From: Corynebacterium mustelae
Lineage (GTDB): Bacteria > Actinomycetota > Actinomycetes > Mycobacteriales > Mycobacteriaceae
DNA length: 64,000 nt
Assembly (NCBI RefSeq): GCF_001020985.1
Contig: NZ_CP011542.1
Span: forward strand, 1,674,001-1,738,000
Direction of reading: 5' to 3'
Positions 3,298-60,688 of the stretch are shown piece by piece; the stretch's first letter is position 1; each line of letters opens with the position of its first letter. The notes below the pieces were generated by a model that did no database searches, was not told the origin of the DNA, and saw only the letters and a program-made list of their open reading frames with translations. The position numbers were made by a program, and so were the translations under genes.

Positions 3298-4161
3298 CTA
3301 GTGTAGTGCGAAAACGTGGTCGATGGCCGAGACTAGCCGATCGCGAAGCTTCGTTGCATCATAAGATAACGCGCGTTGCCGTTCCACGTATTCTTGTTTT
3401 CCCGCTGTAGTCTCTATTGCGACAACGCCTAGCCCAAATTCGCGGCAATCATACGGGGATGCTTCCATGTCTAAAATACGAGCGCGTTGCGCAAGCTCAA
3501 ATGTATCTAGCCAGAGGGAACCAGCTATTATAGGCCCTAATTTTGCAGCCCACTTATACAGGTCCATTGTGGCATGGACACAACCGCGCTGCTCCGTTTC
3601 GGGCTGTTTTTCTCGGCTTAACACGGTTAGATTTAAAGGCCGAGCAGAAGGCGTGAAAAATCGGAAGGCGTCAAAGTGCGTGCATCGCAGTGAATTTTCT
3701 TCCACTACTCGCTGGGTATCTATGGCGCCTAATCGAAGTGGAAGTGAGTGGCGAGGAGAGTCTGTTTGATAGACCATCGCCCATTCATGGAGTCCAAAAC
3801 AATCGAATCGAGCCTGATTCTGTTCAGTTTTGCTAAGTAGATCTCGGATGAAGGTGAGCGTCTGCCGACGCGCATCACGGTAATGATCGATATCGATGCA
3901 GGTGTATTGATTCTTGTTGTGATAATATTTCCATCCTGCTTGTTGACTTGCTGTAACAGGGTCGAAAATTGCTACACCTATGCCAGGATGCCAGCGTTCT
4001 AAATGTGCTGCACGAATGGGATAGTATTCGAAAAGGAAATCAAAGACCGGATGTTTTTTGCCTGCTTTTCGACGCTCAAGGTGTGCAGCGGTAAAAGATT
4101 TAGCCCGAGCAATATGCTCAGATTGCAGTGTTGTCCATTCTGCGGTATCGAGATAGATCAT
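3298..4161 (-). CDS. Conserved actinobacterial protein, often labelled 3-methyladenine DNA glycosylase
   Basis: The 287-residue soluble protein has a conserved core containing FGLHEWAMVY near residue 122 and DIDHYRDARR near residue 90. From memory, homologues in Corynebacterium and Mycobacterium carry the label 3-methyladenine DNA glycosylase. I see neither the helix-hairpin-helix-GPD of AlkA/Tag nor an AAG-type active site, so the function should be treated as unknown. Its ATG overlaps the stop of the upstream CorC gene by four bases (ATGA), showing translational coupling to the two membrane proteins. Confidence 0.7.
   Translation of the reverse strand: MIYLDTAEWTTLQSEHIARAKSFTAAHLERRKAGKKHPVFDFLFEYYPIRAAHLERWHPGIGVAIFDPVTASQQAGWKYYHNKNQYTCIDIDHYRDARRQTLTFIRDLLSKTEQNQARFDCFGLHEWAMVYQTDSPRHSLPLRLGAIDTQRVVEENSLRCTHFDAFRFFTPSARPLNLTVLSREKQPETEQRGCVHATMDLYKWAAKLGPIIAGSLWLDTFELAQRARILDMEASPYDCREFGLGVVAIETTAGKQEYVERQRALSYDATKLRDRLVSAIDHVFALH
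4064..4074 (-). repeat. Recurrent word CGTCGAAAAGC, copy 1
   Basis: Exact copy, minus orientation, inside the conserved protein gene at 3298-4161 (reads ERRKAG in its frame). Confidence 0.8.
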
Positions 4162-5231
4162 GATTCTGGTGATTGATTTTGCTGGTGAGTCCAGTCGCTA
4201 AAAGTTCCTACATATTCCTCAATGAGATCTTCAAGAGTGATCACACCAATCAACGTTCCCCGATCACGCACCTGTGCCATGTGCGCCGAACGTTTGTGGA
4301 GTAAATGCAATGCCTCATCAATTGTTCCTGCCGCGTCGACATTGGTCAGAGGCCGGATTTCGGCGCGATGCACAATTGCGTCTGGCGTATTTTCGGCCTT
4401 GCCATCAAACCGATCAAGGACGTCTTTGATATGTACGTATCCGAGATAAGACCCGTTTGTCGCCATAACTGGGAATCGAGAAAAGCCTGTTTCAGCAGCG
4501 GCAGTTTCGAGATCTGAAAGCAATGGGCCGCGTGTACCAAACGATACTGTTCGTACTTTTTCGATGGGAATCATTACTTCGGTGAGACTGCGATCGACTC
4601 GGAGTGCTTTATTTAGCCGTGCGTGTTCTTCTGCATCAAGCAGACCCTCGGATCGCGACTCTGAAATCATTGTCTTCAGTTGGTCTTCATCAACCGTTGA
4701 ATCAAGCTCATCGCGTTGTTCGATGCCAAAAAGCCGAAGCGTCATACGAGCGATCATATTCATAAAGGAAATGAGTGGACGTGTAACCGTAGTAAATCCC
4801 AATAAGGCTGGCGTTAACCACAGAGCCAACGTTTCAGGCCCAGCCAAGGCGATATTTTTTGGAACCATTTCACCGAAAAGAATATGGAGAAACGTTATCA
4901 ACGCTAAGGCGATGATAAATGAAATAGGGTGTAAAAACTGTTCTGGCAATCCGAAATGGAGAAACGGTCCCTCGATGAAATGAGCGATCGCGGGTTCCGC
5001 AACTTTACCCAATATCAGTGAACATATAGTTATGCCGAACTGGCACGCAGCCAACATGATGGAAAGGTGCTCTATCGCATATAGCACACGCTTAGCACCT
5101 GGTCGTCCTTGTAAAATAAGGTTATCTATTCGATCCCGGCGCGATGAAATTAATGCAAATTCAGCGGCTACGAAAAATGCGTTTGCAGCTAGTAGGGCGA
5201 TGATCATCAATACTGTGGTTATGATTCCCAT
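4158..5231 (-). CDS. CNNM/CorC-type CBS-domain membrane protein
   Basis: The 357-residue protein has an N-terminal DUF21 (CNNM) membrane domain with about four segments within residues 1-160 (VAAEFALISSRRDR, then FGEMVPKNIAL), followed by a CBS pair. Relatives include Mg2+/Co2+ efflux proteins and proteins called hemolysin; transport of divalent cations is inferred. It lacks the extra C-terminal CorC_HlyC domain carried by its neighbour. Start and upstream stop overlap by one base (TGATG), so the pair is translated together. Confidence 0.85.
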   Translation of the reverse strand: MGIITTVLMIIALLAANAFFVAAEFALISSRRDRIDNLILQGRPGAKRVLYAIEHLSIMLAACQFGITICSLILGKVAEPAIAHFIEGPFLHFGLPEQFLHPISFIIALALITFLHILFGEMVPKNIALAGPETLALWLTPALLGFTTVTRPLISFMNMIARMTLRLFGIEQRDELDSTVDEDQLKTMISESRSEGLLDAEEHARLNKALRVDRSLTEVMIPIEKVRTVSFGTRGPLLSDLETAAAETGFSRFPVMATNGSYLGYVHIKDVLDRFDGKAENTPDAIVHRAEIRPLTNVDAAGTIDEALHLLHKRSAHMAQVRDRGTLIGVITLEDLIEEYVGTFSDWTHQQNQSPES

Positions 5232-6637
5232 CAGTTGCCCTCAGCTCTCGTAGTTTTAGCGACAATTTCTTTGTATTCTTCTTCGGTTATTGGAGTGATT
5301 ATAACTTTGTCTACGCGTCGGTCTTCCATGGCGGATACCTTGGCCAGCCATCGACCGCTGAAACCAGAGGTAAATTCCGCTAGGGCTGGATGGTCGGATT
5401 CTGGCAATATAACCTCGTCATCCATTGTTGGAATCCTCCCCAACTGGCTCATAACGAGTCCACCTAGGGTTTCGTAAGGCCCATCAGGGGCTATGTAACC
5501 AACTTTTTCCGCCAATTCATCTATCCGAACGAGTCCAGATACAGCCCATGACGTACCGAACGGTTCGAAATCTTTGTCCGCGTCCGCGTTATCATGTTCG
5601 TCATAGACCTCACCAAGGATTTCTTCGATTACATCTTCGATTGTGATGATTCCTGCGGTTCCACCGTATTCGTCAGCGACAAGAATTACTTGGGAGCCTG
5701 CGGATCGTACCGCGTTGAGTACGGCATCGCCGTCTAAGGATTCGGGGACGACCGGGATGCTTCTGGCGATTTCGGATAGCAGGGTAGTACGGCGCTTTTC
5801 TGGCGGTAGCTCAAAAGCATCTTTGTAATGAACCACACCTATGGTTTCGTCCAGGTCTCCTCGGACCACAGGGAAACGTGAGTGTCCGGTTTCAATTGCT
5901 AACGCTATAAGGTCTAGCACTGTGTCGTCGTGAGACAACGTTTCAATCGTTGACCGGGGCGTCATGAGTTCTTCTGCGGTTGTTTCGCCGAAACGAAGTG
6001 ACCGATCTAAGAATCGAGCGGTGGTGGCATCAATATCGCCAGATTCGGCGGAGTTGCGCACAAGGGCAGTGAGCTCTTGGGCGCTACGGGCAGTGGCGAG
6101 TTCATCAGCTGGTTCAATACCTATCTTGCGAACGAGAGCATTTGCGGAGCGATTGAGTAAATTGATGAACCCCCTAAACACGGAATTGAATACGTGCACG
6201 GGGCCTACCACAAATCGTGCGGTGTTCAGTGGGTCAGTGATAGCGATGTTTTTGGGAACAAGTTCTCCAAATACCATGGATAAAAAGGTGGCGATGATCA
6301 GCGCGAGGATCAAGGCGATGGTTGTGGTCCAGGTAGCTGACAACCCAGCGTATTCGAGTATTGGTATCAAGAATTTAGCCAGGATTGGCTCAGCCAGAAA
6401 ACCAGTTGCAAGGGTGGTGATAGTGATGCCTAGTTGTGCGCCGGATAGTACGAACGAAAGATTCTGATAGTCGCGTTTTACTGCGTGAGCAGATTTGTCG
6501 TCTCGCTCAGCCACATCTTGATCGATGGTGGCACGCTCTAATCCGGTTAAGGCAAACTCGACAGCAACGAATAAACCAGTGCTTGCGGTGAGCAAAATGA
6601 AGCCAAGAAGTGAAGCAACTGAGATAACTATGTCCAT
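5231..6637 (-). CDS. CNNM/CorC-type CBS-domain membrane protein with C-terminal CorC_HlyC domain
   Basis: The 468-residue paralogue of the next gene has a DUF21 membrane domain (residues 1-190, FGELVPKNIAI near 130), two CBS motifs (TGHSRFPVV near 250; VADEYGGTAGIITIEDVIEE near 325) and a CorC_HlyC FAD-like domain to the end. The tandem of a long and a short member is common in actinobacteria and suggests a hetero-oligomer. It probably exports divalent metals. It heads a three-gene overlapping operon ending with the gene at 3298. Confidence 0.85.
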   Translation of the reverse strand: MDIVISVASLLGFILLTASTGLFVAVEFALTGLERATIDQDVAERDDKSAHAVKRDYQNLSFVLSGAQLGITITTLATGFLAEPILAKFLIPILEYAGLSATWTTTIALILALIIATFLSMVFGELVPKNIAITDPLNTARFVVGPVHVFNSVFRGFINLLNRSANALVRKIGIEPADELATARSAQELTALVRNSAESGDIDATTARFLDRSLRFGETTAEELMTPRSTIETLSHDDTVLDLIALAIETGHSRFPVVRGDLDETIGVVHYKDAFELPPEKRRTTLLSEIARSIPVVPESLDGDAVLNAVRSAGSQVILVADEYGGTAGIITIEDVIEEILGEVYDEHDNADADKDFEPFGTSWAVSGLVRIDELAEKVGYIAPDGPYETLGGLVMSQLGRIPTMDDEVILPESDHPALAEFTSGFSGRWLAKVSAMEDRRVDKVIITPITEEEYKEIVAKTTRAEGN

Positions 6638-6723
6638 TAGTTGTAACCGACAGCCGAGTGAGCTGCTATTTTAAGCCTTTCCTGCGTTTCTAAAGATTCT
6701 AGCTGATGACTTGGGTATAGGAA

Positions 6724-8076
6724 TCATCGGTTGCGTTTTTTCTGTGCACCATGCCTGGATACTGAGACGGTTCCGCCCCATGGTTTTTTCTTTTTCCGCG
6801 GTTTCGTTTGACGTGGTTGTGCGGCGCTTTTCACTGTATGGGGTTGCGATTTGGAAGTGTTTGTCAACGCGTGGGTCTCGATGGGCTGAAAATCTCCCAG
6901 AGTTTTTCCAGATGGTGTCTTCGCGCCGGTAATTTGCTTCAGTCGCGGGGAAAGTGCATGTATATGTAGTACATCCAACGTGACGCCCGCCTTGGTTAGC
7001 ACTGATTCAACAGCATCCTGTTGATCTGGAAGAAATAGCGTAACGACGCTTCCCGTGCTGCCCGCCCGAGCAGTGCGTCCCGCCCTATGAACGTAGGATT
7101 TAGGTTCGACCGGAGGGTCGATGTGCACGACAAGATCAACCGTGGAGATGTCGATTCCTCGGGCAGCAATATCAGTTGCCACTAATACATTAATTTTTCC
7201 GTTAGAGAAAGCATCAATGACTGCTGTGCGGCTGGTTTGCCCTTTGTTTCCATGTAATCCGGCTGCATGTATGCCAGCCCTACGCAGCTTCCGCACCCAT
7301 TTGTCCACCGCATACTTGGTGCGTGTAAACATTATCGTTTGACCTTTTCTGGCGCCGATGTGAAGTACTACCTGGGTTCGGTCATCTTTATTAGTGACGG
7401 CAAATTGATAGTGCCTCATAGTGTCTACCGCCGCCTCAGGTGTACTCGTTGAGTGGAGAACCGGATCGGTTAAAAACTCGTCGATAAGCGTGGAGACATC
7501 GCCATCAAGTGTCGCTGAAAATAGCAGTCGTTGGCTGGTCGGCGGGGTTTTGCGAAGAATCTTCTGCACCTGTGGCAAAAATCCCATATCCGCCATTTGG
7601 TCAGCCTCATCTATAGCGGTGATGGAAACATCACTTAAATCTAGGTGTTTATTATGTATCAGGTCTAGCGTTCGGCCCGGAGTGGCCACCAAAATATCGA
7701 TTGGTGCCGCAAATTGGCGAACTTGTTTAGAAATGGCGACACCGCCAACGACATCAATAATTCGAAGCCCTTGTGCATGTGCGATGGGGGATAGCCGTTG
7801 TTGAACCTGGGTGGCTAATTCCCGGGTTGGTACAAGAATTAGAGCTCGGGGTCGCCCGGGAATCGAATGTCCGTGTTGTGACAGCCGTGCGACCATTGGG
7901 ATTCCAAAGCACAAGGTTTTTCCGGAACCAGTGGGGGCTCGCCCCAGGATGTCTTTTCCGGAAAGCGCGTCTGGAATGGCAGCAGCTTGAATGGGAAAAG
8001 CTTCGTGCATTCCCTCGCCGTTGAGGCTATAAACAATGGAATGGGGTAAACCGAGTTCGGCGAAAGTAGTCATCAC
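6724..8076 (-). CDS. DEAD-box RNA helicase
   Basis: The 450-residue protein shows the full helicase set: Q-motif region FPIQ near 27, Walker A APTGSGKT at 47-54, PTRELA, DEAD, SAT, and the second RecA domain with HRAGRTARAG near 330. The last 80 residues are basic and Lys/Arg-rich, typical of an RNA-binding tail. A role in RNA unwinding or ribosome assembly is inferred. GTG at 8076 and ATG at 8073 are adjacent and both possible. Confidence 0.93.
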   Translation of the reverse strand: MMTTFAELGLPHSIVYSLNGEGMHEAFPIQAAAIPDALSGKDILGRAPTGSGKTLCFGIPMVARLSQHGHSIPGRPRALILVPTRELATQVQQRLSPIAHAQGLRIIDVVGGVAISKQVRQFAAPIDILVATPGRTLDLIHNKHLDLSDVSITAIDEADQMADMGFLPQVQKILRKTPPTSQRLLFSATLDGDVSTLIDEFLTDPVLHSTSTPEAAVDTMRHYQFAVTNKDDRTQVVLHIGARKGQTIMFTRTKYAVDKWVRKLRRAGIHAAGLHGNKGQTSRTAVIDAFSNGKINVLVATDIAARGIDISTVDLVVHIDPPVEPKSYVHRAGRTARAGSTGSVVTLFLPDQQDAVESVLTKAGVTLDVLHIHALSPRLKQITGAKTPSGKTLGDFQPIETHALTNTSKSQPHTVKSAAQPRQTKPRKKKKPWGGTVSVSRHGAQKKRNR

Positions 8077-10474: not shown

Positions 10475-10528
10475 CAGCTTTTCGATGTTTCAAGTAGTGT
10501 CCTGGAAGATTGCGGCGTCGAAAAGCTG
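10475..10528. terminator. Hairpin between convergent genes, built from an inverted 11-mer
   Basis: CAGCTTTTCGA at 10475-10485 and TCGAAAAGCTG at 10518-10528 form a perfect 11-base inverted repeat with a 32-base loop between the stops of the thioesterase gene (10454) and corA (10535). The right arm is part of the recurrent word CGTCGAAAAGC. It may serve both genes as a terminator, though no long T run follows. Confidence 0.55.
10516..10526 (+). repeat. Recurrent word CGTCGAAAAGC, copy 2
   Basis: Exact copy in the thioesterase/corA intergenic hairpin, paired with an inverted core copy (CAGCTTTTCGA) at 10475. Confidence 0.8.
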
Positions 10529-14264: not shown

Positions 14265-15575
14265 GTGTCGTCACTTGCGCCGCACATACCTGATTACCTC
14301 AGCAGTGTTGACCCACAGCAGTGGCCGGGGGTAGCTACGGTTCCGGGTGGAATGCTGAACGCAGCAAAAGCTCGGCGTGCAGAAGCGGAGTTTGCGGTTG
14401 TTTGTGAAAAAGCTGATATTCGTTTGGCTGGAGATGAACCTGATCTCCGAATCCTTCGGGAGGAGCTTTTTAAACGGATAGCGAAATCTGGTTGGTTGGG
14501 TCTTGCTGAAGGTTACATGGCAGGAGAGTGGGAAAGCGGGCAATTGGTTGAAGTGCTGGCTAAACTGCTGGAGGCTGGCTATTGTCCGCGAACCTCTCGC
14601 ACCCATATTCGTGAGCTGGCGGGGCAGTATAGCGGTCTGGAATTGCCTCAAGATTTGATCCAGCTGTTTAGCGGGAACGGGATGAGTTATCACGGTCCGA
14701 TTTTTTCTTCAGGCGTACCAACCACACAACGAAACCAATATAAAAGTTACGTGCCAGGTGCCGGGAAGGGCAGGGAACCGGCTAGCCATTTTGTGGATGT
14801 AACCGAGCTTGAGGAGCCAACACTTGTGGAACGCGTTGACTTTTCCGACGCGCAGTTACGGGCTGCCGCACAGCTATTAGAATCGGCTCGGGTTTCGGCG
14901 GGTACACACGTTGCTGATTTTCCGAGTTCGGGTCCGCTAGTGCCAATTATCGCGGCACATAACGCGGCAGTAGCTGATGTCTACACGGCTGACGTGGATC
15001 ATGCGAACTGGCTGCAGGAGGTTTTTCAAAAGGCGAAAGTTAATTTGGACATCCATATCAATGTCACCGATGGGGTTTTTCCGGAGCTACGGCGGTTATC
15101 TCGGATGTATGACGCGATTACCAGCGTCGAAAAGCTCGAAACGATGCCATTGGAAACACAACGTCATTATGTGTCGGCGTTAGATAGGATGCTTGTGCCG
15201 TATGGCTTCGTTTCGATGCAGACGGTGGTTAAAACACTTAACTATACTGAGGCAAGTGAGCGTGCGCTTGACGTCCTTCGAGCATACGTGTGGCCTGGAT
15301 TGACCATGTCCTCGCCGGAGGACTTGCACCGGCTTTTCGACGCCAATAGCAATCTACGGATTGTCGCCCAGAAGTGTTTTGGAAAGCATTATAATCATGG
15401 GTTGCAGATGCAGCGCGAGCTGTTCGAAGGGAATATGCGGGAAGCTGCTGCTGATGGCTTCGACGTAACTTTTCGACGGTTATGGGTGTTCCAACTGGCA
15501 TTGCGGGAAGCCTTGTTCCGACTGGAAATGATTGATGCGGTACAGTTAACGATAACGACCCGGCAACGGCGATAA
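14265..15575 (+). CDS. ufaA: UfaA-like protein of the cyclopropane-fatty-acid synthase family, probably inactive
   Basis: The 436 residues align over their length with the CFAS/UfaA1 family that methylates unsaturated acyl chains with SAM. Key positions are altered. The glycine-rich SAM loop (family VLDIGCGWG) reads VADFPSSGPL at 216-225, and the C-terminal AYCEAGF motif holding the catalytic Cys reads ALREALF near 412-418. The rest of the C-terminus (FGKHYN, GFDVTFRRLWVF) is family-like, so the fold is kept. GTG at 14265 follows AAGGAG by five bases. The position beside ndh is conserved in corynebacteria. Confidence 0.75.
   Translation: MSSLAPHIPDYLSSVDPQQWPGVATVPGGMLNAAKARRAEAEFAVVCEKADIRLAGDEPDLRILREELFKRIAKSGWLGLAEGYMAGEWESGQLVEVLAKLLEAGYCPRTSRTHIRELAGQYSGLELPQDLIQLFSGNGMSYHGPIFSSGVPTTQRNQYKSYVPGAGKGREPASHFVDVTELEEPTLVERVDFSDAQLRAAAQLLESARVSAGTHVADFPSSGPLVPIIAAHNAAVADVYTADVDHANWLQEVFQKAKVNLDIHINVTDGVFPELRRLSRMYDAITSVEKLETMPLETQRHYVSALDRMLVPYGFVSMQTVVKTLNYTEASERALDVLRAYVWPGLTMSSPEDLHRLFDANSNLRIVAQKCFGKHYNHGLQMQRELFEGNMREAAADGFDVTFRRLWVFQLALREALFRLEMIDAVQLTITTRQRR
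15125..15135 (+). repeat. Recurrent word CGTCGAAAAGC, copy 3
   Basis: Exact copy in ufaA, reading SVEKL; an inverted copy follows 196 bases later. Confidence 0.8.
15332..15342 (-). repeat. Recurrent word CGTCGAAAAGC, copy 4
   Basis: Exact inverted copy in ufaA, reading LFDA in the gene frame. Confidence 0.8.
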
Positions 15576-19372: not shown

Positions 19373-20968
19373 CTAGCGGTTTTTCTTCTTCGCAGTAGAC
19401 GATGTGGATTGAGAAGGTGATTTCCGGTTTGGCTTCGTCGCCGAAGCCGGTGCGGCAGATGTGTTATTAAACCGCCACAGTGCAAAGATCATTGCCAACC
19501 ACCCAATGATAACCAACGTGTATTCAATTGTAGAACCGTATCGCACTGCAATCGTTGAACTGTTACGCAACGGCAACGTTTCAATCAAAGTTTTAGCTTC
19601 AAAGATCCCGGTATGCTGGGTAACCGTGCCGTCAGGTTGAACAATGGCGGATACCCCCGAAGTCGCTGCAACTACCACTGCCCTATCAACTTCGATCGCG
19701 CGCATACGGCTCATAGCAAGCTGCTGGTACGTCATATCAGAGAAGTTAAAGGTTGCATTGTTTGTGGGGGTAGTCAGGATTTGTGCATCAGCTCTAACTG
19801 CATCGCGTGCGGCCGCGTCGAAGGCCACCTCGTAGCACGTGGCAATCCCGACTGTGACTGCCGTTCCAGATGTTGCGGCTCGCATTCGCACAATTCCTGT
19901 GCCATTTCCTGGTTGGAAATTTCCTGCTAAGTCAACTTTTTCCGAAAATAAACGGAAGAACTTTCGCATCGGCATGTATTCCCCAAATGGCTGGAGAAAC
20001 TTTTTGTGGTGAAACTCCCCTGGTCCGGTTTCCGGGTCAAATACAACCATAGTATTGCGGGGCCCTACTTCGTCATGGGTAATGGTTCCTACCAAAACTG
20101 GGGCGCTAGCGGCAGCTACCGCTTGGCTTATCAATTCCTTTGCCTCTACATCTGAAAACGGATTCACATCTGAGGAGTTCTCGGGCCATATAACTAAATC
20201 AACCGGTTCACGTTCTTTTAGTTTTGAGGTCTCTGCTACATGGTTGGCCAAGACAGCGCGCCGTTGGGCGTTAAATTCCAACCCTAACCGCGGTACGTTA
20301 CCCTGAATCGCCGCTACAGACACCTCGCCGATGCTTTTCGACGACCCCATTGTTACAGTAGTCCAAGCTGTTCCGGCAGCGATAATAAGAAAACAAACCA
20401 CAATGATGGTCATGTGACGTCGAAAAGCAATCGTGTACGACCCGGTGGCTAAAACGACAGTGACGAACGTTACCAATGCTGGCCCACCGATACTTGCCAA
20501 ATTAGCTAAAGGACTGCCCACTTGCCCCCAAGCCAAACGCACCCAGGCGAATCCACCAAAGGGAAAATGTGAACGCAGCCACTCCACCGCCAGGTATAAA
20601 AATGCAAACCACAACCAGGGGTAAGGCACTCGCTGTAATGCTGCCGCACCGACCCCAAGGATAATGCCGTAAAGGGAGAGAAAAACTGCCAACGATATGT
20701 ATGGGAAGTTTCCGACAAACTCACCGATCCACGGCAATAGCAACATATACAGTACGAAACAATGGCTAGCTGCTATGGCTGCGCCTAACCGCAACGAAAC
20801 GTATTGCCCTTTAATCGGTGAAAATCCAGCATATAAGACAGCGACTCCGACTACGCCAGCCACACTGAAACCTTGTGGCTGGTAGGAGGCGTAGACCAAG
20901 ACACCGGATAGCAATGCTAGGCATATTCGTATAAGTGCATGCATATTACGCGCGCGGATACTCAACAT
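19373..20968 (-). CDS. lnt: Apolipoprotein N-acyltransferase
   Basis: The 531-residue membrane enzyme N-acylates the lipoprotein N-terminal cysteine. About six N-terminal membrane segments are followed by an extracellular nitrilase domain with the Glu-Lys-Cys triad visible: WPENSSDVN near 265, [12 protein letters not shown] near 330, and ATCYEVAFD near 378. One last membrane segment precedes a Ser/Lys-rich tail. It is the corynebacterial Ppm2/Lnt partner of Ppm1. Two copies of CGTCGAAAAGC lie 85 bases apart within it in opposite orientation. ATG at 20968 or 20944. Confidence 0.93.
20333..20343 (-). repeat. Recurrent word CGTCGAAAAGC, copy 5
   Basis: Exact copy in lnt, reading SSKS; its inverted partner is 74 bases away. 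Confidence 0.8.
20418..20428 (+). repeat. Recurrent word CGTCGAAAAGC, copy 6
   Basis: Exact copy in lnt, opposite to the gene, reading AFRR. Confidence 0.8.
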
Positions 20969-21586: not shown

Positions 21587-24500
21587 TTAATTCTCCGAGC
21601 GGCCCTCCACATTCCCTTCCATTTCAAGGAACGTAGAACGCAAAGTTTCTAGCGCCTCTGCGGATGGGTTTTCCCAAAGATTTCGATCGGCAGCTTCCAA
21701 CAGTCGCTCTGAAATATCACGCAACGCCCATGGGTTAGATTGTTCAAAGAACTGACGGTTAACCTCGTCTTTAACGTATGTATCCGTTAGGGTTTCGTAC
21801 ATCCAATCTTCCATGAGCCCTGTCGTGGCGTCATAGCCGAAGAGATAATCAACTGTGGCAGACATTTCGAATGCGCCTTTATAGCCATGATTTCGCATGG
21901 CTTCGATCCAGCGCGGATTCACCACGCGCGCACGGAATACCCGCCTTGATTCTTCATGCAGCGTTCGGGTTTTAACAGTTTCCTGACGGGTGGAATCACC
22001 AATATAAGCTTCGGGGTCTTTACCGGTAAGGGCGCGTACGGTGGCGACCATTCCACCATGGAATTGGAAATAGTCGTCAGAATCTGCGATGTCATGTTCT
22101 TTCGAGTCTACGTTTTTCGCTGCCACCTGGATTCGCCGATATGCGGTGCGCATATCATCGGCCGCTTCAACACCATCAAGGTTGCGTCCGTAGGCATAGC
22201 CACCCCACGTGGTATATACCTCAGCAAGATCTTTGTCGTCTCGCCAATTCCCAGATTCGATCAACTGCAATAAACCAGCCCCATAGGTACCCGGCTTAGA
22301 TCCGAATATGCGGCGCACATGGGACTTGGGGCTTTCGTGCTTGTCGACGCGTGCATGGGCTGCGACATAGTTAAGCTCATCAGGTTCATCGAGATTGGCA
22401 ACAAGCTGTACAGCATCGTCAAGCAATGCGAGTACATGTGGGAAGGCGTCTCGGAAAAATCCAGATATCCGGACGGTAGTATCAATACGAGGTCGTCCCA
22501 GTTCTTCCAACGAGATGATTTCAAGATCTATGACTCGTCGCGAAGCTTCATCCCACACGGGTCGTACGCCAAGCAGAGCAAAAACTTCTGCGATGTCATC
22601 CCCTGAGGTTCGCATGGCAGAGGTTCCCCACACGGACAGCCCCACAGACTTCGGATAGTCACCATGCTCCTCCCGGTACCGGGTGACCAGCGATTCAGCA
22701 AGTAGCTGGCCCGTTTCCCACGCAAGACGCGATGGCAGAGATTTTGGATCGACCGAGTAGAAATTTCTGCCAGTTGGCAGCACGTTGACCAAGCCGCGCA
22801 TCGGGGAACCGGAGGGACCTGCCTCAATGAAACGACCGTCCAATGCGCGCAGGATTTGGTCAATTTCCCGACTGGTTTCCGCCAACCGCGGGATGATTTC
22901 GTTGCAAGCGAATGTAAGAAGCGTGGTCAACTCATCTCTATCTGCATCCGCTGGCAAGTAATCAGCTGCCGCGACAATTTCTAGCACTGCGTTTTGATCC
23001 CAGTCACGGTTTTCCAAGCTGGTTAGAAGCTGTTGTGCTATGCCTTCTATCTGATCAACTCGGTTTCGGGTTTCATCGCCGGACTCAGAAAGACCTAGAG
23101 TTTCCCGCAGGCCCGGTACTGCTGTCTCACCGCCCCAAAGCTGTCGGGCCCGCAGCATCGCCAGAACAAGCTCCACCCGCACATCACCGCTGACAGTTTC
23201 GCCTAAGATGTGAAGCCCACCCCGGATAGCCACGTCTTTGATTTCGCACAGCCAGCCGTCGATTTCCATCATTTTGTCATCAAAGGCATCTTCGTCAGGC
23301 CGTTCGGCCCAGCCAAGATCACGGTCCATTTTTGCGGCTTGAAGCAGCGTCCAAATTTCTTGACGAATGGCAGGTAATTTAGCCGGATCCATCGCAGAGA
23401 TTGTTGCATGCTCGTCAAGAAGCTGCTCAAGACGGGTGATGTCGCCGTAGGATTCGGCACGTGCCATTGGCGGAATCATATGGTCAACAAGCGTGGCATG
23501 AGCGCGTCGTTTCGCCTGGGTCCCCTCACCTGGGTCATTAACAAGGAAAGGATAAACCAGTGGCAGTTCATTGATCGCCTGATCCGGATAGCATTCCGAA
23601 GAAAGCCCAGCATTTTTTCCAGGCAACCATTCCATATTTCCGTGTTTACCCATGTGAACGATAGCGTCAGCACCAAATACTTCCCTGATCCAAAAATATG
23701 TACCCAGGTAATGGTGGTTTGCTGGCAGGTCGGGGTCATGATAAATGCCCACCGGGTTTTCGCCGAAGCCCCGCGGAGGTTGCACCATGACAACGACGTT
23801 TCCGAAGGTCAAACCCGCAATATAAAGTTCATTGGTTTTTGGATTGACGTAATGGGTACCTGGGGCCTTATCCCAGTGTTCCTCCATTTCAGCCTGCATC
23901 CCCTCAGGCAAGGATTGGAAAAACTGTTGGTAAGTAGCGGCAGACAGTTTCAGCGGATTGGAAGATAGCACCTCTTCGGTTAGCCATTCAGGGTCATGCC
24001 CACCTGCAGCGATGACAGCGTGCATTAGGGCATCGCCGTCAAGTTCGCCAGCAAGACTGAAACCTGGAATCTGATCGATATCACCAAGATCGTAACCTGC
24101 GCCATGAAGCGCGCGTAGTACCCGTAACGTTGACAATGGGGTGTCCAAGCCGACTGCGTTTCCGATCCGAGCGTGTTTCGTCGGATAAGCCGAAAGCATA
24201 AGGACGATTTTCTTGTCGGAAGCCGGGATGTGCCGCAGTCTAGCGTGGCGGTAAGCAATACCAGCTAGTCGGCGGCATCGATCGTGGTCTGGGACGTAGC
24301 AGATAAGCCCGTCGGCATCGTATTCTTTGAACGAAAACGGCACGGTGATCAGGCGACCATCAAATTCCGGAACCGCGATCTGTGAAGCTACATCGACTGG
24401 ATTGAGGCCTTCATCTGATTCTTCCCATTCGGCACGGGAATTGGTTAGCGCGAGGCCTTGAATAATAGGGATATCCAGGGCCGCTAATTGAGCAACATCC

Positions 24501-25553: not shown

Positions 25554-25617
25554 TCATCGGACACACTCTTTTTAGCCAGTTCGGTAGTTGCTGGTACAGC
25601 GATTAGGATGTGATCTT

Positions 25618-26802
25618 ATGACCACCCTTAATGAAAACGCTGACATCAGTGTTTTGATTACATCGCCGGATCGTTCCAGAAATGACATGTGTCCAGGAGC
25701 TATCAGGCTCCATAACGCACAAGATGGAGCGATTGGCCGCGTGCGGTTCCCTGGCGGCAGAGTTCTTGCGCAACAATGGCAAGACATCTCGCGAATCTCA
25801 ACCAACCTCGGCGACGGAACAATCCACATCACCACCCGAGGAAATTTACAATTCCGGGGTGTCTCAGATGATGCGAAATTTCTCGCCGCGGTCGAAGACG
25901 CAGGATTTTTACCGTCCCGCCCCCACGACAAGATCCGCAACATCTTAGCGTCGCCATTGGACCACGACTTGTGGCCGTTAGTAACCGCCCTTGATAACGC
26001 GCTTTTGGCGAATGATACCGTCACAGGACTCTCCGGACGCACACTATTTGGCATTGATGGTGGTTCCGGTGATGTGATGAGCAGGCGCCCAGACTTCGGA
26101 GTTCGTCGCAGCGAAGAAGGCTTTCAATTAATATTGGCGGGCCAATTACAACCCTATATCATCACAGATGACAACCAAGTTGCACCCCTTCTTACGAAAG
26201 CCGCCGCATTATGGCAAACATCAAGGGGCAACCACTGGCGGTTGCGTGAAAATCCTACAATTATTGCATCAATCGTTTCCGCTATCGCAGATGCGCCGGG
26301 CGTCGAAAAGCACGATTCTATTGACATCCAGGAATCACCTCAACGTCAGTTCCGCCCTATCGGTTGGATCGAAACCGGCAACCCCGAAAGCCGGACTGTA
26401 TCACTAGGGGCAGGTTTGCGATTCGGGTTTACATCGGCAAAAGTTGCGAAAATTTTATCGGTTATCGGAGCAACCACCACGATCACGCCATGGGCGTCGC
26501 TGGTAATCCATGACATACCAGAACACGACGCCGACGCAGTGCTTCGCGTACTCGCACCAATGGGTCTGATATTCGACGAGCGTTCGCCATGGCTGCGCAT
26601 AACAGCGTGCACCGGATTGCCGGGGTGCGCAAAATCGCTGTCACACACCCAACAAGATGCCGCTAACCTAGCGCAGTCCGAAAAAATTCCAGCCGGGCTT
26701 ATCCACTTTTCCGGCTGCGAACGTCGTTGTGGTCACCCATTATCATCGCACACAGAATACGTCGCCACCGGTGACGGTGAATACGAGGTCACATTACGAT
26801 GA
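25618..26802 (+). CDS. cobG: Precorrin-3B synthase
   Basis: This 394-residue monooxygenase of the aerobic pathway makes precorrin-3B from precorrin-3A and O2. The sulfite/nitrite-reductase-like fold is visible: ferredoxin-like half with RITTRGNLQF-type sequence (HITTRGNLQFRG near 70), and the C-terminal CTGLPGC ... HFSGCERRC set that binds the [4Fe-4S] cluster. The ATG at 25618 follows AGGATG; an upstream start at 25588 adds ten residues. It shares a four-base ATGA overlap with cobH. Its presence marks the oxygen-dependent route. Confidence 0.9.
   Translation: MTTLNENADISVLITSPDRSRNDMCPGAIRLHNAQDGAIGRVRFPGGRVLAQQWQDISRISTNLGDGTIHITTRGNLQFRGVSDDAKFLAAVEDAGFLPSRPHDKIRNILASPLDHDLWPLVTALDNALLANDTVTGLSGRTLFGIDGGSGDVMSRRPDFGVRRSEEGFQLILAGQLQPYIITDDNQVAPLLTKAAALWQTSRGNHWRLRENPTIIASIVSAIADAPGVEKHDSIDIQESPQRQFRPIGWIETGNPESRTVSLGAGLRFGFTSAKVAKILSVIGATTTITPWASLVIHDIPEHDADAVLRVLAPMGLIFDERSPWLRITACTGLPGCAKSLSHTQQDAANLAQSEKIPAGLIHFSGCERRCGHPLSSHTEYVATGDGEYEVTLR
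26301..26311 (+). repeat. Recurrent word CGTCGAAAAGC, copy 7
   Basis: Exact copy in cobG, reading VEKH. Confidence 0.8.
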
Positions 26803-27513: not shown

Positions 27514-29058
27514 ATGCATAAAACTGAACCCTCTTCACCCGCAGCAACCACAGACAACCGCCCCATTGGAAAACTCATCGGAGTTGGCGTCGGTCCCGGT
27601 GACCCAGAGCTACTGACACTTAAAGCAGTTTCTGCCATTGAAGAAGCCGACGTGGTTGCTTTTCATGCACGCAAAGGCGGCGATTCTACTGCGCGCCAAA
27701 TCGCTCAAGCTCATATCCGTTCTGACCACATTATCGAACTACTCGAATACCCAGTAACCACCGGAATAACTGACCACCCAGGAGGCTACGCTGGAGCCAT
27801 GGCCGAATTCTACTCGGCCGCAGCCAAACGGCTAGGCGCCCACCTAGAATCAGGAAAGACCGTCGCCATACTCGCGCTAGGCGACCCGATGCTCTACAGC
27901 TCATACCAGCATTTACATCGCATGTTGGCCGAGGACTTCCCTGCCGAGATCATTCCAGGTATCCCCTCGATTACCGCCGCAGCCGATGTTTTAGGTATGC
28001 CCCTATGTGAAGATGAAGAAACACTCACGGTCATACCCGGAACCCTTAACGAAGCAACACTGACTGAAAAACTTCGCGACACAGACTGCGCAGTAGTGAT
28101 GAAGCTTGGCCGGACGTTCTCCAAAGTAAAACAGGCAATGATCGCCGCAGGTGTTGCCGATCGTGCCTTTGTTGTTACCCGGGTCGGCATGCCTGGCCAA
28201 ACCCACATGCCACTCTTGGAAGCCGAGCCTTCAGAAATCCCATATTTTGCAGTCGCAGTAATACCATCGGATAAGCAACAAGCTCCATCAATCTCTATGG
28301 GGCATACCTCCGCCATAGGGGAAGTCGTCGTTTTGGGGCTAGGGCCTGGCGCACCACGGTGGACCACCCCAGAAGTGCAAGCAGAACTCAAACGAGCTAC
28401 GGACATTGTCGGCTACTCGACCTATATCAATCGAGTACCGGAACGCGCCGGGCAGCGCCGCCATCCCTCAGATAACAAAGTGGAAGCAGAGCGTGCCGCA
28501 ATGGCCTTAGATATGGCCAAAGCCGGACGGCGTGTTGCCGTAGTTTCCTCAGGTGACCCCGGGGTTTTCGCCATGGCTGCTGCGGTAATAGAGACGGCTG
28601 ACGACGACTTATGGCGTGATATTCCCATTCGGGTGATACCAGGAATGACGGCTGCACAAGCCGTTGCTTCTTGTGTTGGTGCTCCACTAGGTCATGATTT
28701 TGGGATGATTTCGCTATCCGATCGACTCAAACCGTTTGATATCGTCGAAAAGCGAATCCGTGCCCTTGCGGGAGCTGATATGGCTTTTGCTGTTTATAAC
28801 CCTGCATCGAAAGAACGCAGGTGGCAGATCGCTCGGATGCGGGATATCGTTGCGGAGTATCAATCCCCCACCACTGCTGTGATAGTGGCCCGAGCAGTCG
28901 GCAGTGAGCAACAAAAAATCACCGTAACCACCCTTGCGGATTTCGATCCAACGATCGTTGATATGCGAACAATGGTCATCATTGGGGCTTCTACAACCAG
29001 AGTGTATGAAACCACTCGGGGGGAGAAACGAGTTTTTACCTCTCGCCGATATGACTAA
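27514..29058 (+). CDS. cobIJ: Fused CobI-CobJ: precorrin-2 C20- and precorrin-3B C17-methyltransferase
   Basis: The 514 residues hold two uroporphyrin-III methyltransferase-type domains in tandem. CobI spans about 15-255 (GVGVGPGDPELLTLKA near 24; ALGDPMLYSSY near 119). CobJ spans about 265-514 (VVLGLGPGAPRWTTPE near 273; SSGDPGVFAMAA near 345). This fusion is the usual actinobacterial form. It ends the plus-strand cobG-cobH-cobIJ operon. Confidence 0.95.
   Translation: MHKTEPSSPAATTDNRPIGKLIGVGVGPGDPELLTLKAVSAIEEADVVAFHARKGGDSTARQIAQAHIRSDHIIELLEYPVTTGITDHPGGYAGAMAEFYSAAAKRLGAHLESGKTVAILALGDPMLYSSYQHLHRMLAEDFPAEIIPGIPSITAAADVLGMPLCEDEETLTVIPGTLNEATLTEKLRDTDCAVVMKLGRTFSKVKQAMIAAGVADRAFVVTRVGMPGQTHMPLLEAEPSEIPYFAVAVIPSDKQQAPSISMGHTSAIGEVVVLGLGPGAPRWTTPEVQAELKRATDIVGYSTYINRVPERAGQRRHPSDNKVEAERAAMALDMAKAGRRVAVVSSGDPGVFAMAAAVIETADDDLWRDIPIRVIPGMTAAQAVASCVGAPLGHDFGMISLSDRLKPFDIVEKRIRALAGADMAFAVYNPASKERRWQIARMRDIVAEYQSPTTAVIVARAVGSEQQKITVTTLADFDPTIVDMRTMVIIGASTTRVYETTRGEKRVFTSRRYD
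28743..28753 (+). repeat. Recurrent word CGTCGAAAAGC, copy 8
   Basis: Exact copy in cobIJ, reading VEKR. Confidence 0.8.
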
Positions 29059-40109: not shown

Positions 40110-41109
40110 GTGCTGCCTTTCGCAATAATTTCACCACGCTGTTGACAATTTCCTTCGGTTCAAGCACAAGGACATCAGGTGCAAGGGCTGCCGCTTGCCG
40201 CACCAACCATCCAGCATCAATGTCAACGAGTTTGTATAAGCCGTTATCTGGGTCAATTGCTAAAGCACCAGGTTGAATATCTTCTGCTTGTTCCTTCGTG
40301 GCGCGTATTGTGGCGTCGACAAGCGTTTTGCCGTTTCTCAGCTGCGCCAACACAAGTTCGTGAAGATCCACGGCCGGATCCATACCATGAAAGCTGCCGT
40401 AGACTTCTTCGTCATCGTGTTGAGGCGATAAAAAAGCTATATCGGAAACGCGCGTGATGCGGAAGCATCGTGGCGCCTGACGGTCTAAATCAAAACCGAC
40501 CAGATACAATCGGTCACGATTGGCTACTATCCCCCACGGATCCATCCACCGTTCAACGTAATCACTTGTGGATGTGCGCTGGTAATAAAAACTTAACCGC
40601 TTGCGATGAGTACAGGCTTGCGTGATCAAATCCAAATCTTGCGCCTGAAGCGAGCTCCAATCATTTATCGGCGTAAACGCGACAGCCGGTGCCAGCGAGG
40701 ATTCAACACCGCTAGCGGCAATTTTGGTCCACCCTGAACGGGAAAAGGCAGCGAGCTGGTCGCCAGTTCCCATTTTTCCGGCAAGACCTAAAACTGTGGC
40801 TTCATCAGGGGTAAATTCAACTGCGGGTAACTCGTAATTTTCTGGTTGTAACCGCCACACTATCTGGCTGCCAAGTTTAAAAGACTCCAGCGGCACACCC
40901 GCGCGAATAAGGTTGCGGCAATCACGTTGAAACATGACGTGAGCTGCGTCAATTTTTCGGATGTTCTTTTTATCATCAAACTTATAGCCTGGAACGTTTT
41001 TATAAACGTGATCAAAAGTTACGTACTCAGTTCCCGACTTAGCGGCGGAAAGAAAGCTAAAAGTGAGATTGGTGACACGCTCCAATTGAGCGTCGTTGCG
41101 ATTAGCCAT
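40096..41109 (-). CDS. pafB: WYL-domain transcriptional regulator PafB
   Basis: The 337-residue partner of PafC carries an N-terminal winged helix and a WYL domain (KRLSFYYQR near 167, RDRLYLVGFDLDR near 198, FRITRVSDI). The PafBC complex senses single-stranded DNA-related damage and activates repair genes with RNA polymerase. It starts on the last base of pafA and overlaps pafC, so the three are one transcription unit. Confidence 0.92.
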   Translation of the reverse strand: MANRNDAQLERVTNLTFSFLSAAKSGTEYVTFDHVYKNVPGYKFDDKKNIRKIDAAHVMFQRDCRNLIRAGVPLESFKLGSQIVWRLQPENYELPAVEFTPDEATVLGLAGKMGTGDQLAAFSRSGWTKIAASGVESSLAPAVAFTPINDWSSLQAQDLDLITQACTHRKRLSFYYQRTSTSDYVERWMDPWGIVANRDRLYLVGFDLDRQAPRCFRITRVSDIAFLSPQHDDEEVYGSFHGMDPAVDLHELVLAQLRNGKTLVDATIRATKEQAEDIQPGALAIDPDNGLYKLVDIDAGWLVRQAAALAPDVLVLEPKEIVNSVVKLLRKAAHDTD

Positions 41110-42784: not shown

Positions 42785-44263
42785 TTATTCCATGAGTCCT
42801 TTCGCGCGCATGTCGGCTAGAAATTCGGTTATGTTAGGCAGAATACTCAAAGATGTTTCGGTGTGCTGCTTTGTGTGGGTTGTGACTTCTGGCATGAAGA
42901 TTCGTTGGCCGAAGATTGACATTACTTCCCAGCTTGCGGAGTCGATGAGGTGGGATACGCGTTTAATTAATTCACCGCGAAGGTAGGCGCGGGTGTCTGT
43001 TGGTGGGTGCCATGCTGCGTGTTCGATCATGTCTGTGGTTACGAGTGTTTGCATTGCTGAGTTTCGTACTAGTGCATGGTACAAGCTTTTCGACGGGTCG
43101 ATGTCTGCGTATTGTAGGTCGATGAGTTTGAGTTTGGCGTCTGTGATGCCGATGCCTCGGTTGGTGTATGAGGAAATCAGTGCCCATTTGGCGCACCAGT
43201 CTAAGGTGTCTGCGCAGGCGTGTGGTCCGCCGGTGTGGAGTTTTTCTATGGTTTCCGCCCATAGTGGGTGCACGGTTTCGTCGGCTTCGACTCGGTTGTG
43301 GTATTCGCGTAGTAGTTCAAGTGCGGTGAGTTGGCGTCCGTCGACGAGTGTGAGTTTGTGGGTTAGTGATAGGTCTCGGGAGACGTGTTTGAGTTCGGCT
43401 ACGGGGGTTTTTAGGGTGAGGTCGTTGAAGTTGGCGCCTGCTTCGATTGCGTCCATGACTAGTGATGTGGTGCCGAGTTTGAGCAGGGTTGACGTGTGGG
43501 ACATGTTGGCGTCGCCGATGATTATGTGTAGTCTGCCGAAGCGTTTTGCGTCTGCGTGTGGTTCGTCTCGGGTGTTGATGATTCCGCGGTTAAGTGTCGT
43601 TTCTAGGGAGATTTCTTGCTCGATGTAGTCTGCGCGTTGGGAGATTTGGAATCCGGGTTCTTCGCCGAACATGCCTAGGCCTACGCGTCCTGCTCCGGTG
43701 AGTACTTGGCGGGCGACGAGGAATGGGATGAGTCCTTGTGCGAGGTGGTCGAATTCGGTGTCGCGGGAATAGAGGTAGTTTTCGTGGCTGCCGTAGCTTG
43801 CGCCTTTGTTGTCGATGTTGTTTTTGTAGATTTTTAGCGGTGGGCACGGTTGGTGGTGTTCTAAGATTGAGTGGTTGCGTGCGCTGAAGGCCGCTACTCG
43901 TTTGACTGCGGTGTTCATGATGACGTCGCCTGCCAGGTCGTAGATCATCGCTTGCCACGGGGTTGTTGTTTCTGGGGCTGAGTATTCTGGGTGTGCGTGG
44001 TCGACGTAAAAGCGGCCGCCGTTTTCTAGAACGACATTGGCGATTCCGAGTGCGTTGGGGTCTACGACGGGAATGGTTTGGTGGCGTTTGAGGTCGAATC
44101 CGCGGCTATCGCGCAGTGGATGTTCGGAGGAGAAATCCCATCGTGCGCCTTGTCCTTGGCTGAAGGCAACGACGGCGTGTGTTGAGGTTATTATGGGCGA
44201 TAATGTGGGGTCGGTTGGTGTTGCGATTCCGTATTCCGTTTCGGTTCCGATGATGCGTGCCAT
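42785..44263 (-). CDS. dop: Pup deamidase/depupylase Dop
   Basis: The 492-residue homologue of PafA deamidates Pup and can remove it from substrates. GTETEYGIATP at the start, the Dop-specific loop around residues 35-75, GSHENYLYSRD near 165, and NTRDEPHADAKRFGRLH near 230 are seen. ATG 44263 matches the conserved MARIIGTETEYG start; a longer frame to 44338 is Arg/Pro-rich and not conserved. The plus strand is notably G/T-rich here compared with its neighbours, meaning an unusual codon choice. Confidence 0.95.
   Translation of the reverse strand: MARIIGTETEYGIATPTDPTLSPIITSTHAVVAFSQGQGARWDFSSEHPLRDSRGFDLKRHQTIPVVDPNALGIANVVLENGGRFYVDHAHPEYSAPETTTPWQAMIYDLAGDVIMNTAVKRVAAFSARNHSILEHHQPCPPLKIYKNNIDNKGASYGSHENYLYSRDTEFDHLAQGLIPFLVARQVLTGAGRVGLGMFGEEPGFQISQRADYIEQEISLETTLNRGIINTRDEPHADAKRFGRLHIIIGDANMSHTSTLLKLGTTSLVMDAIEAGANFNDLTLKTPVAELKHVSRDLSLTHKLTLVDGRQLTALELLREYHNRVEADETVHPLWAETIEKLHTGGPHACADTLDWCAKWALISSYTNRGIGITDAKLKLIDLQYADIDPSKSLYHALVRNSAMQTLVTTDMIEHAAWHPPTDTRAYLRGELIKRVSHLIDSASWEVMSIFGQRIFMPEVTTHTKQHTETSLSILPNITEFLADMRAKGLME
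43085..43095 (-). repeat. Recurrent word CGTCGAAAAGC, copy 12
   Basis: Exact copy in dop, reading PSKS. Confidence 0.8.
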
Positions 44264-44268
44264 GGTGT

Positions 44269-54076: not shown

Positions 54077-54279
54077 AAGCAGTGTCCTCCACAAAATTTT
54101 GCTGTTACCTGCACCGTAATTTCCACCACGGTTTCTAACGGTCAACAGCGGCAATTTATATTTAGTAGTAACAGCTTTTATGCGATAAATAAATTCACTA
54201 ATTAAATGTATTGTTGGTTGTTAAAATTATTTTTTATTTATCCTAGGTACCAACTACTACTATAACCATAACCCATAAA

Positions 54280-54464: not shown

Positions 54465-54475
54465 CGTCGAAAAGC
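54465..54475 (+). repeat. Recurrent word CGTCGAAAAGC, copy 13
   Basis: Exact copy in the intergenic region downstream of hisG. Confidence 0.8.
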
Positions 54476-54534: not shown

Positions 54535-55380
54535 CTAGATCCGGGCAATCCTTATCTCAGAAGCGAGAATAGCTTGCGCACCGATATCCGCCAGTTGATC
54601 CATGATCGAATTGGCGCGCTTTTTCGGCACCATCGCGCGTACCGCGACCCACTTGTCATTAGCTAGCGGAGAAACTGTTGGTCCCGAAATCCCAGGAGTA
54701 ATTGTGGTTGCCTGATCGAGAAGTCGACGCTCAACGTTATAGTCAAGCATGAGGAAATTTTGCGCATGCAAAATTCCTTCTATCCGTCGCAACAACACCT
54801 GCATATCCGGCGAGATCACCGCATCGCGCCGGACGACCACAACTGCTTCGGAATCAACTAGCGGTTCCCCAAAAGGCGCTAATCCTTGTTTACGCAACGT
54901 GCGACCAGTAGAAACGACGTCGGCGATCACATCAGCCACCCCGAGTTTGATGGAAATTTCAACCGCTCCATCAAGACGAATCACCTCAGCGCTAATCCCC
55001 CGCCGAGCTAAGTCACTGCGAACGAGATTAGGATACGAGGTAGCAATGCGCTTGCCTTCAAGCTTATCGACGCTCCAGTCTTCTGTCGCCGGTGCCGCAT
55101 ACCTAAAAGTGGATGATCCAAATCCAAGCGTAAGAACTTCTTGTACTTCGGCTAACGAATCAGCCGCGAGATCCCGACCAGTGATGCCAAGATCCAACTG
55201 TCCGTTGGCAACATATATCGCTATGTCTTTGGGGCGGAGGAAAAAGAACTCAACATTATTGGTCTTATCCTCCACTGTCAGCGCTTTGGAATCACCTCGG
55301 GTGGAATAACCAGCCTCTTTGAGGATCTCAACGGCAGCTTCGGACAGGGACCCTTTATTTGGTACGGCGACCTTGAGCAT
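54535..55380 (-). CDS. hisG: ATP phosphoribosyltransferase, long form
   Basis: The 281-residue enzyme joins ATP and PRPP in the first step of histidine synthesis. The N-terminal catalytic domains read [28 protein letters not shown] lies near 60 and [13 protein letters not shown] near 155 (PRPP loop). Residues 205-281 form the ACT-like domain that gives histidine feedback in the long HisG. ATG 55380 follows AAGGAAG. hisE lies 19 bases upstream. Confidence 0.95.
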
Positions 55381-55399
55381 GGAACTTCCTTGACTAGGA

Positions 55400-55663
55400 C
55401 TAGAGATACTTATAAACATCTTCTGGGCTAATGCCACGTGCAATCATGACCGTCTGGGTCCAATACAACAATTGAGAGATTTCTTCGGCTAACTGTTCAT
55501 CCGTTTGATACTCAGCAGCGATCCACACCTCGCCAGCCTCTTCGATTACTTTCTTCCCTAAGTGGTGCACACCCTTGTCAATGGCAGCAACCGTACCCGA
55601 ACCTTCTGGCCGCTTGGCTACTCGTTGGTGAAGTTCGGAATAGAGGGTATCAAAGTTCTTCAT
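55400..55663 (-). CDS. hisE: Phosphoribosyl-ATP pyrophosphatase
   Basis: The 87-residue MazG-like enzyme hydrolyses phosphoribosyl-ATP to phosphoribosyl-AMP. The metal-binding set [17 protein letters not shown] near 31-47 and EEISQLLYW near 60 are characteristic. It overlaps the upstream HAD gene by four bases (ATGA) and precedes hisG. Confidence 0.95.
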
Positions 55664-60605: not shown

Positions 60606-60609
60606 CGGG

Positions 60610-60625
60610 TAGACAGCTTAGTCCG
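60610..60625 (-). promoter_or_regulatory. McbR-like operator next to the metH start
   Basis: TAGAC-AGCTTA-GTCCG (60610-60625) matches eight of ten positions of the McbR operator TAGAC-N6-GTCTA known from C. glutamicum sulfur and methionine genes. It ends five bases before the metH start codon, where a bound repressor could block transcription or translation. Confidence 0.45.
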
Positions 60626-60677
60626 GAAACTGGAGTTTTAAGCAATTAAGCTTCGGTTACTGCCAGGTGTTAGCCCT

Positions 60678-60688
60678 GCTTTTCGACG
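60678..60688 (-). repeat. Recurrent word CGTCGAAAAGC, copy 14
   Basis: Exact copy in the metH/cutinase intergenic region. Confidence 0.8.

Follow-up and report, generated by a model that had tools for sequence, protein, structure and literature searches.

An 11-bp word, CGTCGA[A/C/T]AAGC, which recurs about once per 2.9 kb in the genome of Corynebacterium mustelae, is probably a DNA uptake signal sequence that would favour own-species DNA. It was recognised in a window of 64,000 nt, the whole stretch of DNA that was analysed (assembly GCF_001020985.1, contig NZ_CP011542.1, positions 1,674,001 to 1,738,000 of the forward strand; G000:C1:1674001-1738000), in a genome of 3,474,226 bases on three contigs. 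The uptake reading is proposed because the pattern matches the uptake sequences of Neisseria and Haemophilus, known respectively as DNA uptake sequences (DUS) and uptake signal sequences (USS), with agreement in most properties: copy number, occurrence in both orientations, a core with flanks, dialects, absence from the mobile DNA examined, hairpin-forming pairs, and the presence of uptake genes. The strongest evidence for a putative uptake role is the existence of species dialects. A sequence-only reading of the window had left the choice open between a DUS and a site for a nucleoid or repair protein; the first half of that proposal is favoured by the dialects, the absence from the mobile stretches examined, the hairpins, and the com, Tad and dprA gene set, and the nucleoid half retains a small share of the probability.

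Abundance, footprint and placement of the word

The most frequent form of the word, CGTCGAAAAGC, is present in 676 exact copies genome-wide (335 forward and 341 reverse), far above the 23 copies (12 and 11) of a reversed-word control. The word is not strictly CGTCGAAAAGC, as had been supposed from the window, since position 7 accepts A, C or T; across the genome these three forms number 676, 345 and 183, with reversed-word controls of 23, 3 and 4, and together they give 1,204 copies of the fuller word. Copy numbers far above chance, in the hundreds to thousands, are characteristic of DUS and USS.

Further statistics were obtained from a sample of 864 kb, approximately one quarter of the genome, composed of 40 stretches of 20 kb along with the window. 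Here CGTCGAAAAGC was observed 164 times vs. 3.5 expected under an order-5 Markov model, and the only higher-ranking 11-mers were units of a CRISPR-like repeat. The C and T variants at position 7 are also over-represented (84 vs. 1.6 and 46 vs. 2.0 expected, respectively). Weak enrichment was found for G at position 7 (9 copies), T or C at position 6 (15 and 7), and T at position 11 (13), while the remaining single-base changes occur near or below expectation. The CRISPR-like repeat, with core TTTTCCCCGCGTGAGCGGGGATGTTCC, is found ~85–92 times in the sample (L031–L070), and a related repeat occurs in another Corynebacterium genome, G052 (L141–L150).

Base composition around 292 family copies is biased almost continuously from position −15 to +14, where the core occupies positions 1 to 11, with isolated biased positions further out at −32, −23, +29, and +34. 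The left flank is G/C-rich, with G strongest at 0, −1, −3, −4, and −10, and the right flank is A-rich. Given this extended bias, the recognised object is a putative one-sided site of ~30 bp with an 11-bp core. A strict core accompanied by a weaker flanking consensus is a further trait of DUS and USS. The asymmetry of core and flanks rules out a palindromic word of the HIP1 type. Cyanobacterial HIP1 is a palindromic word over-represented genome-wide, inside and outside genes; the Corynebacterium word is likewise over-represented within and between genes, but is non-palindromic, with a one-sided footprint and dialects.

Of the 294 family copies in the sample, 91 are intergenic. A wider pattern, CGTCG[ACT]NAAGC, has 373 copies, which a crude gene caller (80% of the sample assigned as coding) distributes as 171 antisense and 94 sense to genes, 103 intergenic, and 5 at edges. 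These occupy all six reading frames, and one antisense frame (xLFDx and similar) is favoured, with 139 of the 265 coding copies. Exact copies within called genes number 106, vs. a mean of 3.35 and a maximum of 6 in 40 shuffles of synonymous codons (codon pairs not preserved), an excess of ~30-fold. Together, the shuffles and the reversed-word control rule out chance and synonymous-codon usage as explanations, and uphold the initial view that protein sequence does not account for the copies.

The word is spread over the whole chromosome on both strands without polarity, as are DUS and USS. Copies divide 148:146 between leading and lagging strands when assigned individually and 147:147 when assigned by stretch. 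The octamers G[ATC]GGGGGA and [TC]GGGGGAG, described as actinobacterial architecture-imparting words and plotted in C. ulcerans (PMC3164646), served as a positive control and gave 73:18 and 64:6 in the same stretches. The new word resembles these octamers as a short word over-represented across Corynebacterium chromosomes, and differs from them in lacking their strong polarity. An FtsK-orienting or architecture-imparting polar word is therefore ruled out, and the polarity of a Chi site is missing, in agreement with what the 7:7 orientation of the window copies had suggested. Density in four bins of increasing distance from the origin is flat (3.25, 3.5, 3.5, and 3.37 copies per 10 kb), which excludes a regional, terminus- or origin-linked site of the MatS or Noc type. 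Counts per 20 kb have a mean of 6.8 and a variance of 6.4, and the 254 gaps between copies have a coefficient of variation of 0.87; the copies are therefore spaced randomly or at most a little more regularly.

When neighbouring copies lie within 60 bp of each other, 9 of 10 pairs are oppositely oriented. Five of the nine inverted pairs are intergenic, are predicted to fold as hairpins, and carry the same form of the word on both arms; among the other four, the arms have the same form in two and differ in two. Inverted uptake sequences forming terminator stems are described for H. influenzae (PMC5217627), and the inverted pairs found here may be comparable.

Species dialects and mobile DNA

The nearest named relatives of the helicase gene adjoining the tad cluster are from Corynebacterium (five of the nine loci returned by the scan), consistent with the genus guessed from the window. 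Protein identities are 88% to a metagenome-assembled Corynebacterium sp., 68% to C. silvaticum, and 66% to C. phoceense. Between the tad region of this genome (L181) and that of a named relative (L201), 15.7 kb align at 81.6% nucleotide identity. In this one pair of loci, six of the seven aligned words of L181 are kept in L201, vs. 15.1% of all aligned 11-mers being identical. The seventh word and the sole aligned word specific to L201 are each off by one base in the other locus, and one word per locus falls outside the alignment.

The A, C, and T forms were counted in 73 Corynebacterium genomes and summed by hand. CGTCGA[ACT]AAGC is present in at least 52 copies in 54 of them and in at most 23 copies in the other 19, and the mix of forms varies by species. 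For example, G070 is T-rich (679 T, 120 C, and 127 A), G047 carries mostly C, and G062 and G063 carry T and A forms with almost no C.

Samples of 214–218 kb were taken from four of these low genomes (G006, G015, G029, and G052). G006 and G052 carry instead the word CATCGGCAAGC, with 340 and 478 whole-genome copies, respectively (35 vs. 1.3 expected in the G006 sample); all other genomes have at most 33, a borderline count reached in G072. G peaks at −13, −10, and −4 to −1 stand beside the words of G006, G052, and G062, and more weakly in G009. In G015, GGTGGCGTCGA is found, followed by an A-rich tail; whole-genome counts are 215 in G015, 124 in G010, and 2 to 105 in the other 71 genomes. As GGTGGCGTCGA overlaps the CGTCGA core, its counts include family words preceded by GGTGG and its background is higher. 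Another word, CGTCGGAAAT, has 120 copies in G047 (control 0) and is weaker in G013 (54), G031 (54), and G071 (39). No comparable word was found in 218 kb of G029. This genome and 13 low genomes read in part or not at all (G003, G014, G017, G024, G027, G032, G038, G039, G040, G053, G061, G065, and G072) make up the 14 of 73 to which no word is assigned. In stretches L116, L192, and L198 of G038, AGCGGATCG occurs 14 times vs. 1.3 expected in 56 kb, and is possibly another species word, unlike the others.

On a helicase tree of 21 rows, in which 5 of the 18 inner branches have good support, species with CATCGGC-type words form one supported clade (98/97). This clade includes G014, for which no word was found in 42 kb. 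G015 and G010 group weakly (84/68). Among single loci of 16–22 kb (L201–L206), those of C. silvaticum and C. glucuronolyticum contain a CGTCGA-type word and that of C. phoceense the CATCGGC-type word CATCGGCAAGC (4 copies in 22 kb), and neither type was seen in 22 kb of the Corynebacterium metagenome-assembled genome S11A_Sa_001. Outside the genus, the A form reaches at most 24 copies in 48 genomes of the order, with a control of 21 in that top genome, and the T form at most 11 in 293 genomes of the family and order, the 48 included. Among four further members of the genus, two carry the T form (173 and 100 copies) and two lack it (3 and 4). The comparison with related species proposed at the outset thus recovered the word along with species-specific variants in the same frame, as is the case for DUS and USS.

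Family copies are absent from the 60 kb of plasmid, phage-contig, and prophage stretches that were counted, where ~20 would be expected. In contig C2 the initial 20 kb encode a TrwC relaxase and TraG, indicating a conjugative plasmid, and in contig C3 the initial 20 kb encode tape measure and capsid proteins, indicating a phage; neither had a near match in the plasmid collection. These two stretches, fetched before counting, contain 0 copies in 40 kb vs. ~13.5 expected. The third stretch, chromosomal positions 912–932 kb, encodes portal, capsid, and VapE-like proteins and is largely prophage. It is the sole sampled 20-kb chromosomal stretch without the word and was picked for having zero copies, and is therefore not an independent test. 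The capsid genes of C3 (L103:16478-17518; contig of 42.8 kb) and of the prophage (L056:14316-15356) have equal length and Pfam score, and may belong to one phage that exists both as an episome and as a prophage, or to a pair of closely similar copies. Depletion in mobile elements, a property of DUS and USS, is thus observed here for three stretches, two of which are possibly one element.

Among the closest known systems are two kinds of uptake sequence. USS of the Pasteurellaceae are ~30 bp long and, as in H. influenzae (AAGTGCGGT), combine a strong core with weaker flanks, a feature shared by the Corynebacterium word, and form terminator stems from inverted pairs, to which the pairs found here may correspond. 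The H. influenzae USS has more one-mismatch forms, whereas the word described here has few one-mismatch core forms, is unrelated in sequence, and belongs to a different phylum. With the DUS of the Neisseriaceae it shares a short non-palindromic core that occurs many times on both strands, dialects that differ between species, and an atypical occurrence in mobile elements. The dialects of DUS, their receptor ComP, and their atypical distribution in mobile elements are described in PMC3630211, PMC3868556, and PMC7371117, respectively. Unlike DUS, to which it has no sequence likeness, the Corynebacterium word is found in a Gram-positive, high-GC genus whose candidate machine is a Tad/Flp pilus.

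Copies within the window

All 14 exact copies of CGTCGAAAAGC first reported in the window are present at their positions and strands. The word ranks first among window 11-mers (14 seen vs. 0.12 expected under an order-4 Markov model), and matches with at most one mismatch number 25, vs. a mean of 1.5 and a maximum of 5 in 100 dinucleotide shuffles. Inclusion of the C and T forms brings the family in the window to 19 copies.

Open reading frames (ORFs) of at least 100 aa were considered for context. Eleven exact copies lie within ORFs: 4064..4074 (−) in 3298-4161 (−); 15125..15135 (+) and, antisense, 15332..15342 (−) in 14259-15575 (+); 20333..20343 (−) and, antisense, 20418..20428 (+) in 19373-20968 (−), of the apolipoprotein N-acyltransferase family; 26301..26311 (+) in 25588-26802 (+); 28743..28753 (+) in 27514-29058 (+); 31735..31745 (−) in 31135-32427 (−); 33562..33572 (+), antisense, in 33245-34387 (−); 36768..36778 (−) in the helicase-like ORF 35113-37857 (−), whose family matches are below curated cut-offs; and 43085..43095 (−) in 42785-44338 (−). 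Two copies are located between ORFs, at 54465..54475 (+) between 52769-54154 (−) and 54535-55443 (−), and at 60678..60688 (−) between the metH ORF 57000-60605 (−) and ORF 60755-61702 (−).

The remaining exact copy, 10516-10526 (+), forms an inverted pair (10477..10526) with CATCGAAAAGC at 10477-10487 (−). This pair sits in a terminator-like place, between the convergent ORFs 9906-10454 (+) and 10535-11647 (−), and is predicted to fold as a hairpin of −25.6 kcal/mol on the + strand. The earlier impression of several inverted pairs in the window holds only in part: this is the one close pair, and its CATCGAAAAGC arm has one mismatch. The nearest opposite-strand pairs among the exact copies, 20333/20418 and 15125/15332, exist but are 85 and 207 bp apart. 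Both variant forms over-represented genome-wide also occur, with the T form CGTCGATAAGC at 7479..7489 (+) and 55062..55072 (−), and the C form CGTCGACAAGC at 22339..22349 (−), in the cobN-type ORF 21587-25312 (−), at 40314..40324 (+), and at 63203..63213 (+).

Uptake genes, competing explanations and meaning

As in species with DUS or USS, natural-transformation genes are present, although they also occur where no word was found and are apparently damaged in some word-bearing genomes. Both comEC and dprA were detected in all 73 Corynebacterium genomes, as was a comEA-like helix-hairpin-helix match near comEC (lists compared by eye), and a Tad-type ATPase (T2SSE/TadA) scored over the cut-off in 71 (none in G024, a weak match only in G021). 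An intact-looking comEA ORF stands beside comEC in all 23 loci inspected (L072, L081, L083, L085, L100, L101, and L104–L120). In C. mustelae, comEA (262 aa) and comEC (571 aa) adjoin the gene for the delta subunit of DNA polymerase III, and the tad cluster is ordered ssd-like, tadA, tadB, tadC, a DUF4244 Flp-like pilin, TadE-like, and TadF/G-like, where the names ssd, Flp, and TadE were assigned by position and likeness. In Micrococcus luteus, also an actinomycete, tadA and comEA are described as competence genes (PMC6667448). As almost all of the 73 genomes have comEC, comEA, TadA, and dprA, the presence or absence of these genes is ruled out as the cause of the presence or absence of the word.

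The inspected ComEC proteins fall into two length classes. Fifteen of 23 genomes have a short ComEC (416–596 aa), of which 14 carry CGTCGA- or CATCGGC-type words and the other is G014. Eight have a long ComEC (652–822 aa), of which seven are no-word or GGTGGCGTCGA genomes, and G055 combines a long ComEC with the word.

The word is probably the uptake signal of an undescribed transformation system built on a Tad pilus. Under the uptake reading, a surface receptor, situated either on the Tad/Flp pilus or next to ComEA, would catch word-bearing DNA, which would then enter through ComEC, pass to DprA/RecA, and recombine. Fragments bearing the word would enter more often, so that recombination biased by uptake would enrich the word, and drift in the receptor would give rise to the dialects. 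Candidates, and no more than that, for such a receptor are the small TadE/TadF-like pilins and ComEA.

Several observations weigh against this reading, and its weakest part is the receptor step. When the tad clusters of 16 genomes were compared, no clear receptor emerged. BLAST did not recognise TadE in the tad loci of G053, G010, G032, G038, and G027 (L188, L189, L190, L192, and L196), in which relatives of TadA, TadB, and TadC are present; these genomes have no CGTCGA or CATCGGC words, but are also distant, so the loss of TadE may be only distance. The machinery genes are found in word-less genomes too, such as G029 with no word in 218 kb, and gene presence therefore does not predict the word. 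Conversely, word-rich G021, an 80-contig draft, lacks a TadA match over the cut-off, comEC is divided between two frames in word-bearing G001 (G001:C4:524862-525658), and at comEA the open frame measures only 94 aa in G013 (G013:C1:600160-600342) and 55 aa in G042 (G042:C1:1129429-1129590), both word-bearing. These frames are apparently damaged, through real loss or assembly error, and slightly lower the odds of the uptake reading. No excess of close pairs of words was found (17 of the 254 gaps fall below 200 bp, vs. 20.2 expected under random spacing), the skew being confined to their orientation. Finally, no report of transformation or of an uptake sequence in Corynebacterium was found in searches of the open-licence PubMed Central literature. 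Papers matching the letters of the word (20 listed of 187) appear from their titles to contain them in primers and the like, two of these papers being on C. glutamicum. The initial statement that no such word is described for corynebacteria agrees with those searches, although a gap in this body of papers need not be a gap in the published record.

The main rival is a site for an abundant chromosome-organising protein, nucleoid-associated or condensin-loading, that would space the chromosome evenly and whose specificity would have drifted between species. We consider this unlikely, if worth serious attention. It would account for a site about every 2.9 kb in both orientations at flat density from origin to terminus, for conservation of the word at matching places, for its absence from the mobile DNA examined, and for its presence in genomes with damaged-looking uptake genes; a chromosome-binding protein could equally drift, miss mobile DNA, and have evenly spread sites. 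However, inverted-pair hairpins between genes are not expected of such a site, nor is a specificity that splits inside one genus, as nucleoid-type proteins are usually conserved and often bind loose AT-rich DNA, and the origin or terminus bias of Noc or MatS sites is lacking. The dialects and hairpin pairs, both described for DUS and USS, tip the balance toward an uptake signal.

The other explanations fare worse. A self-marker of a restriction, modification, or defence system, distinct from uptake, is improbable: the word is present in the chromosome and missing from the plasmid, phage, and prophage stretches, but its presence in 54 of 73 genomes, the three bases allowed in its core, and its graded 30-bp flank are unlike a methylase site. 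About as improbable is a Chi-like recombination hotspot read by RecBCD or an AdnAB-type nuclease. Hundreds of non-palindromic copies, with none in the phage DNA examined, would suit such a hotspot, yet it is disfavoured by the lack of polarity beside octamers that show it, by a ~30-bp footprint with weak flanks where known Chi words are shorter, and by dialect splitting within the genus. An origin in biased use of codons, codon pairs, or oligonucleotides, which the preferred antisense frame might suggest, is barely credible given the coding excess over shuffled genes, the use of all frames, the intergenic copies, and the different words of sister species.

The wider proposal goes beyond an uptake signal in one genome, and we hold it to be slightly better than an even bet: that Corynebacterium species are natural transformers with an undescribed, dialect-splitting 30-bp uptake code read through a Tad/Flp pilus, which would have evolved independently in Gram-positive Actinomycetota and would raise mating barriers between species. 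Even if uptake fails as an explanation, strongly conserved dialect words spread over a genus need a dedicated DNA-binding protein, and none was found named. If the proposal is true, uptake codes evolved yet another time, in an actinomycete that has a Tad pilus, and competence is directly testable in a laboratory strain by putting the word on DNA. The word would then predict the DNA that a given species takes, would help to account for genetic exchange among members of one species, and would mark recently arrived mobile DNA. Corynebacterium, which includes pathogens and industrial strains, would thus have a self-selective route of DNA uptake.

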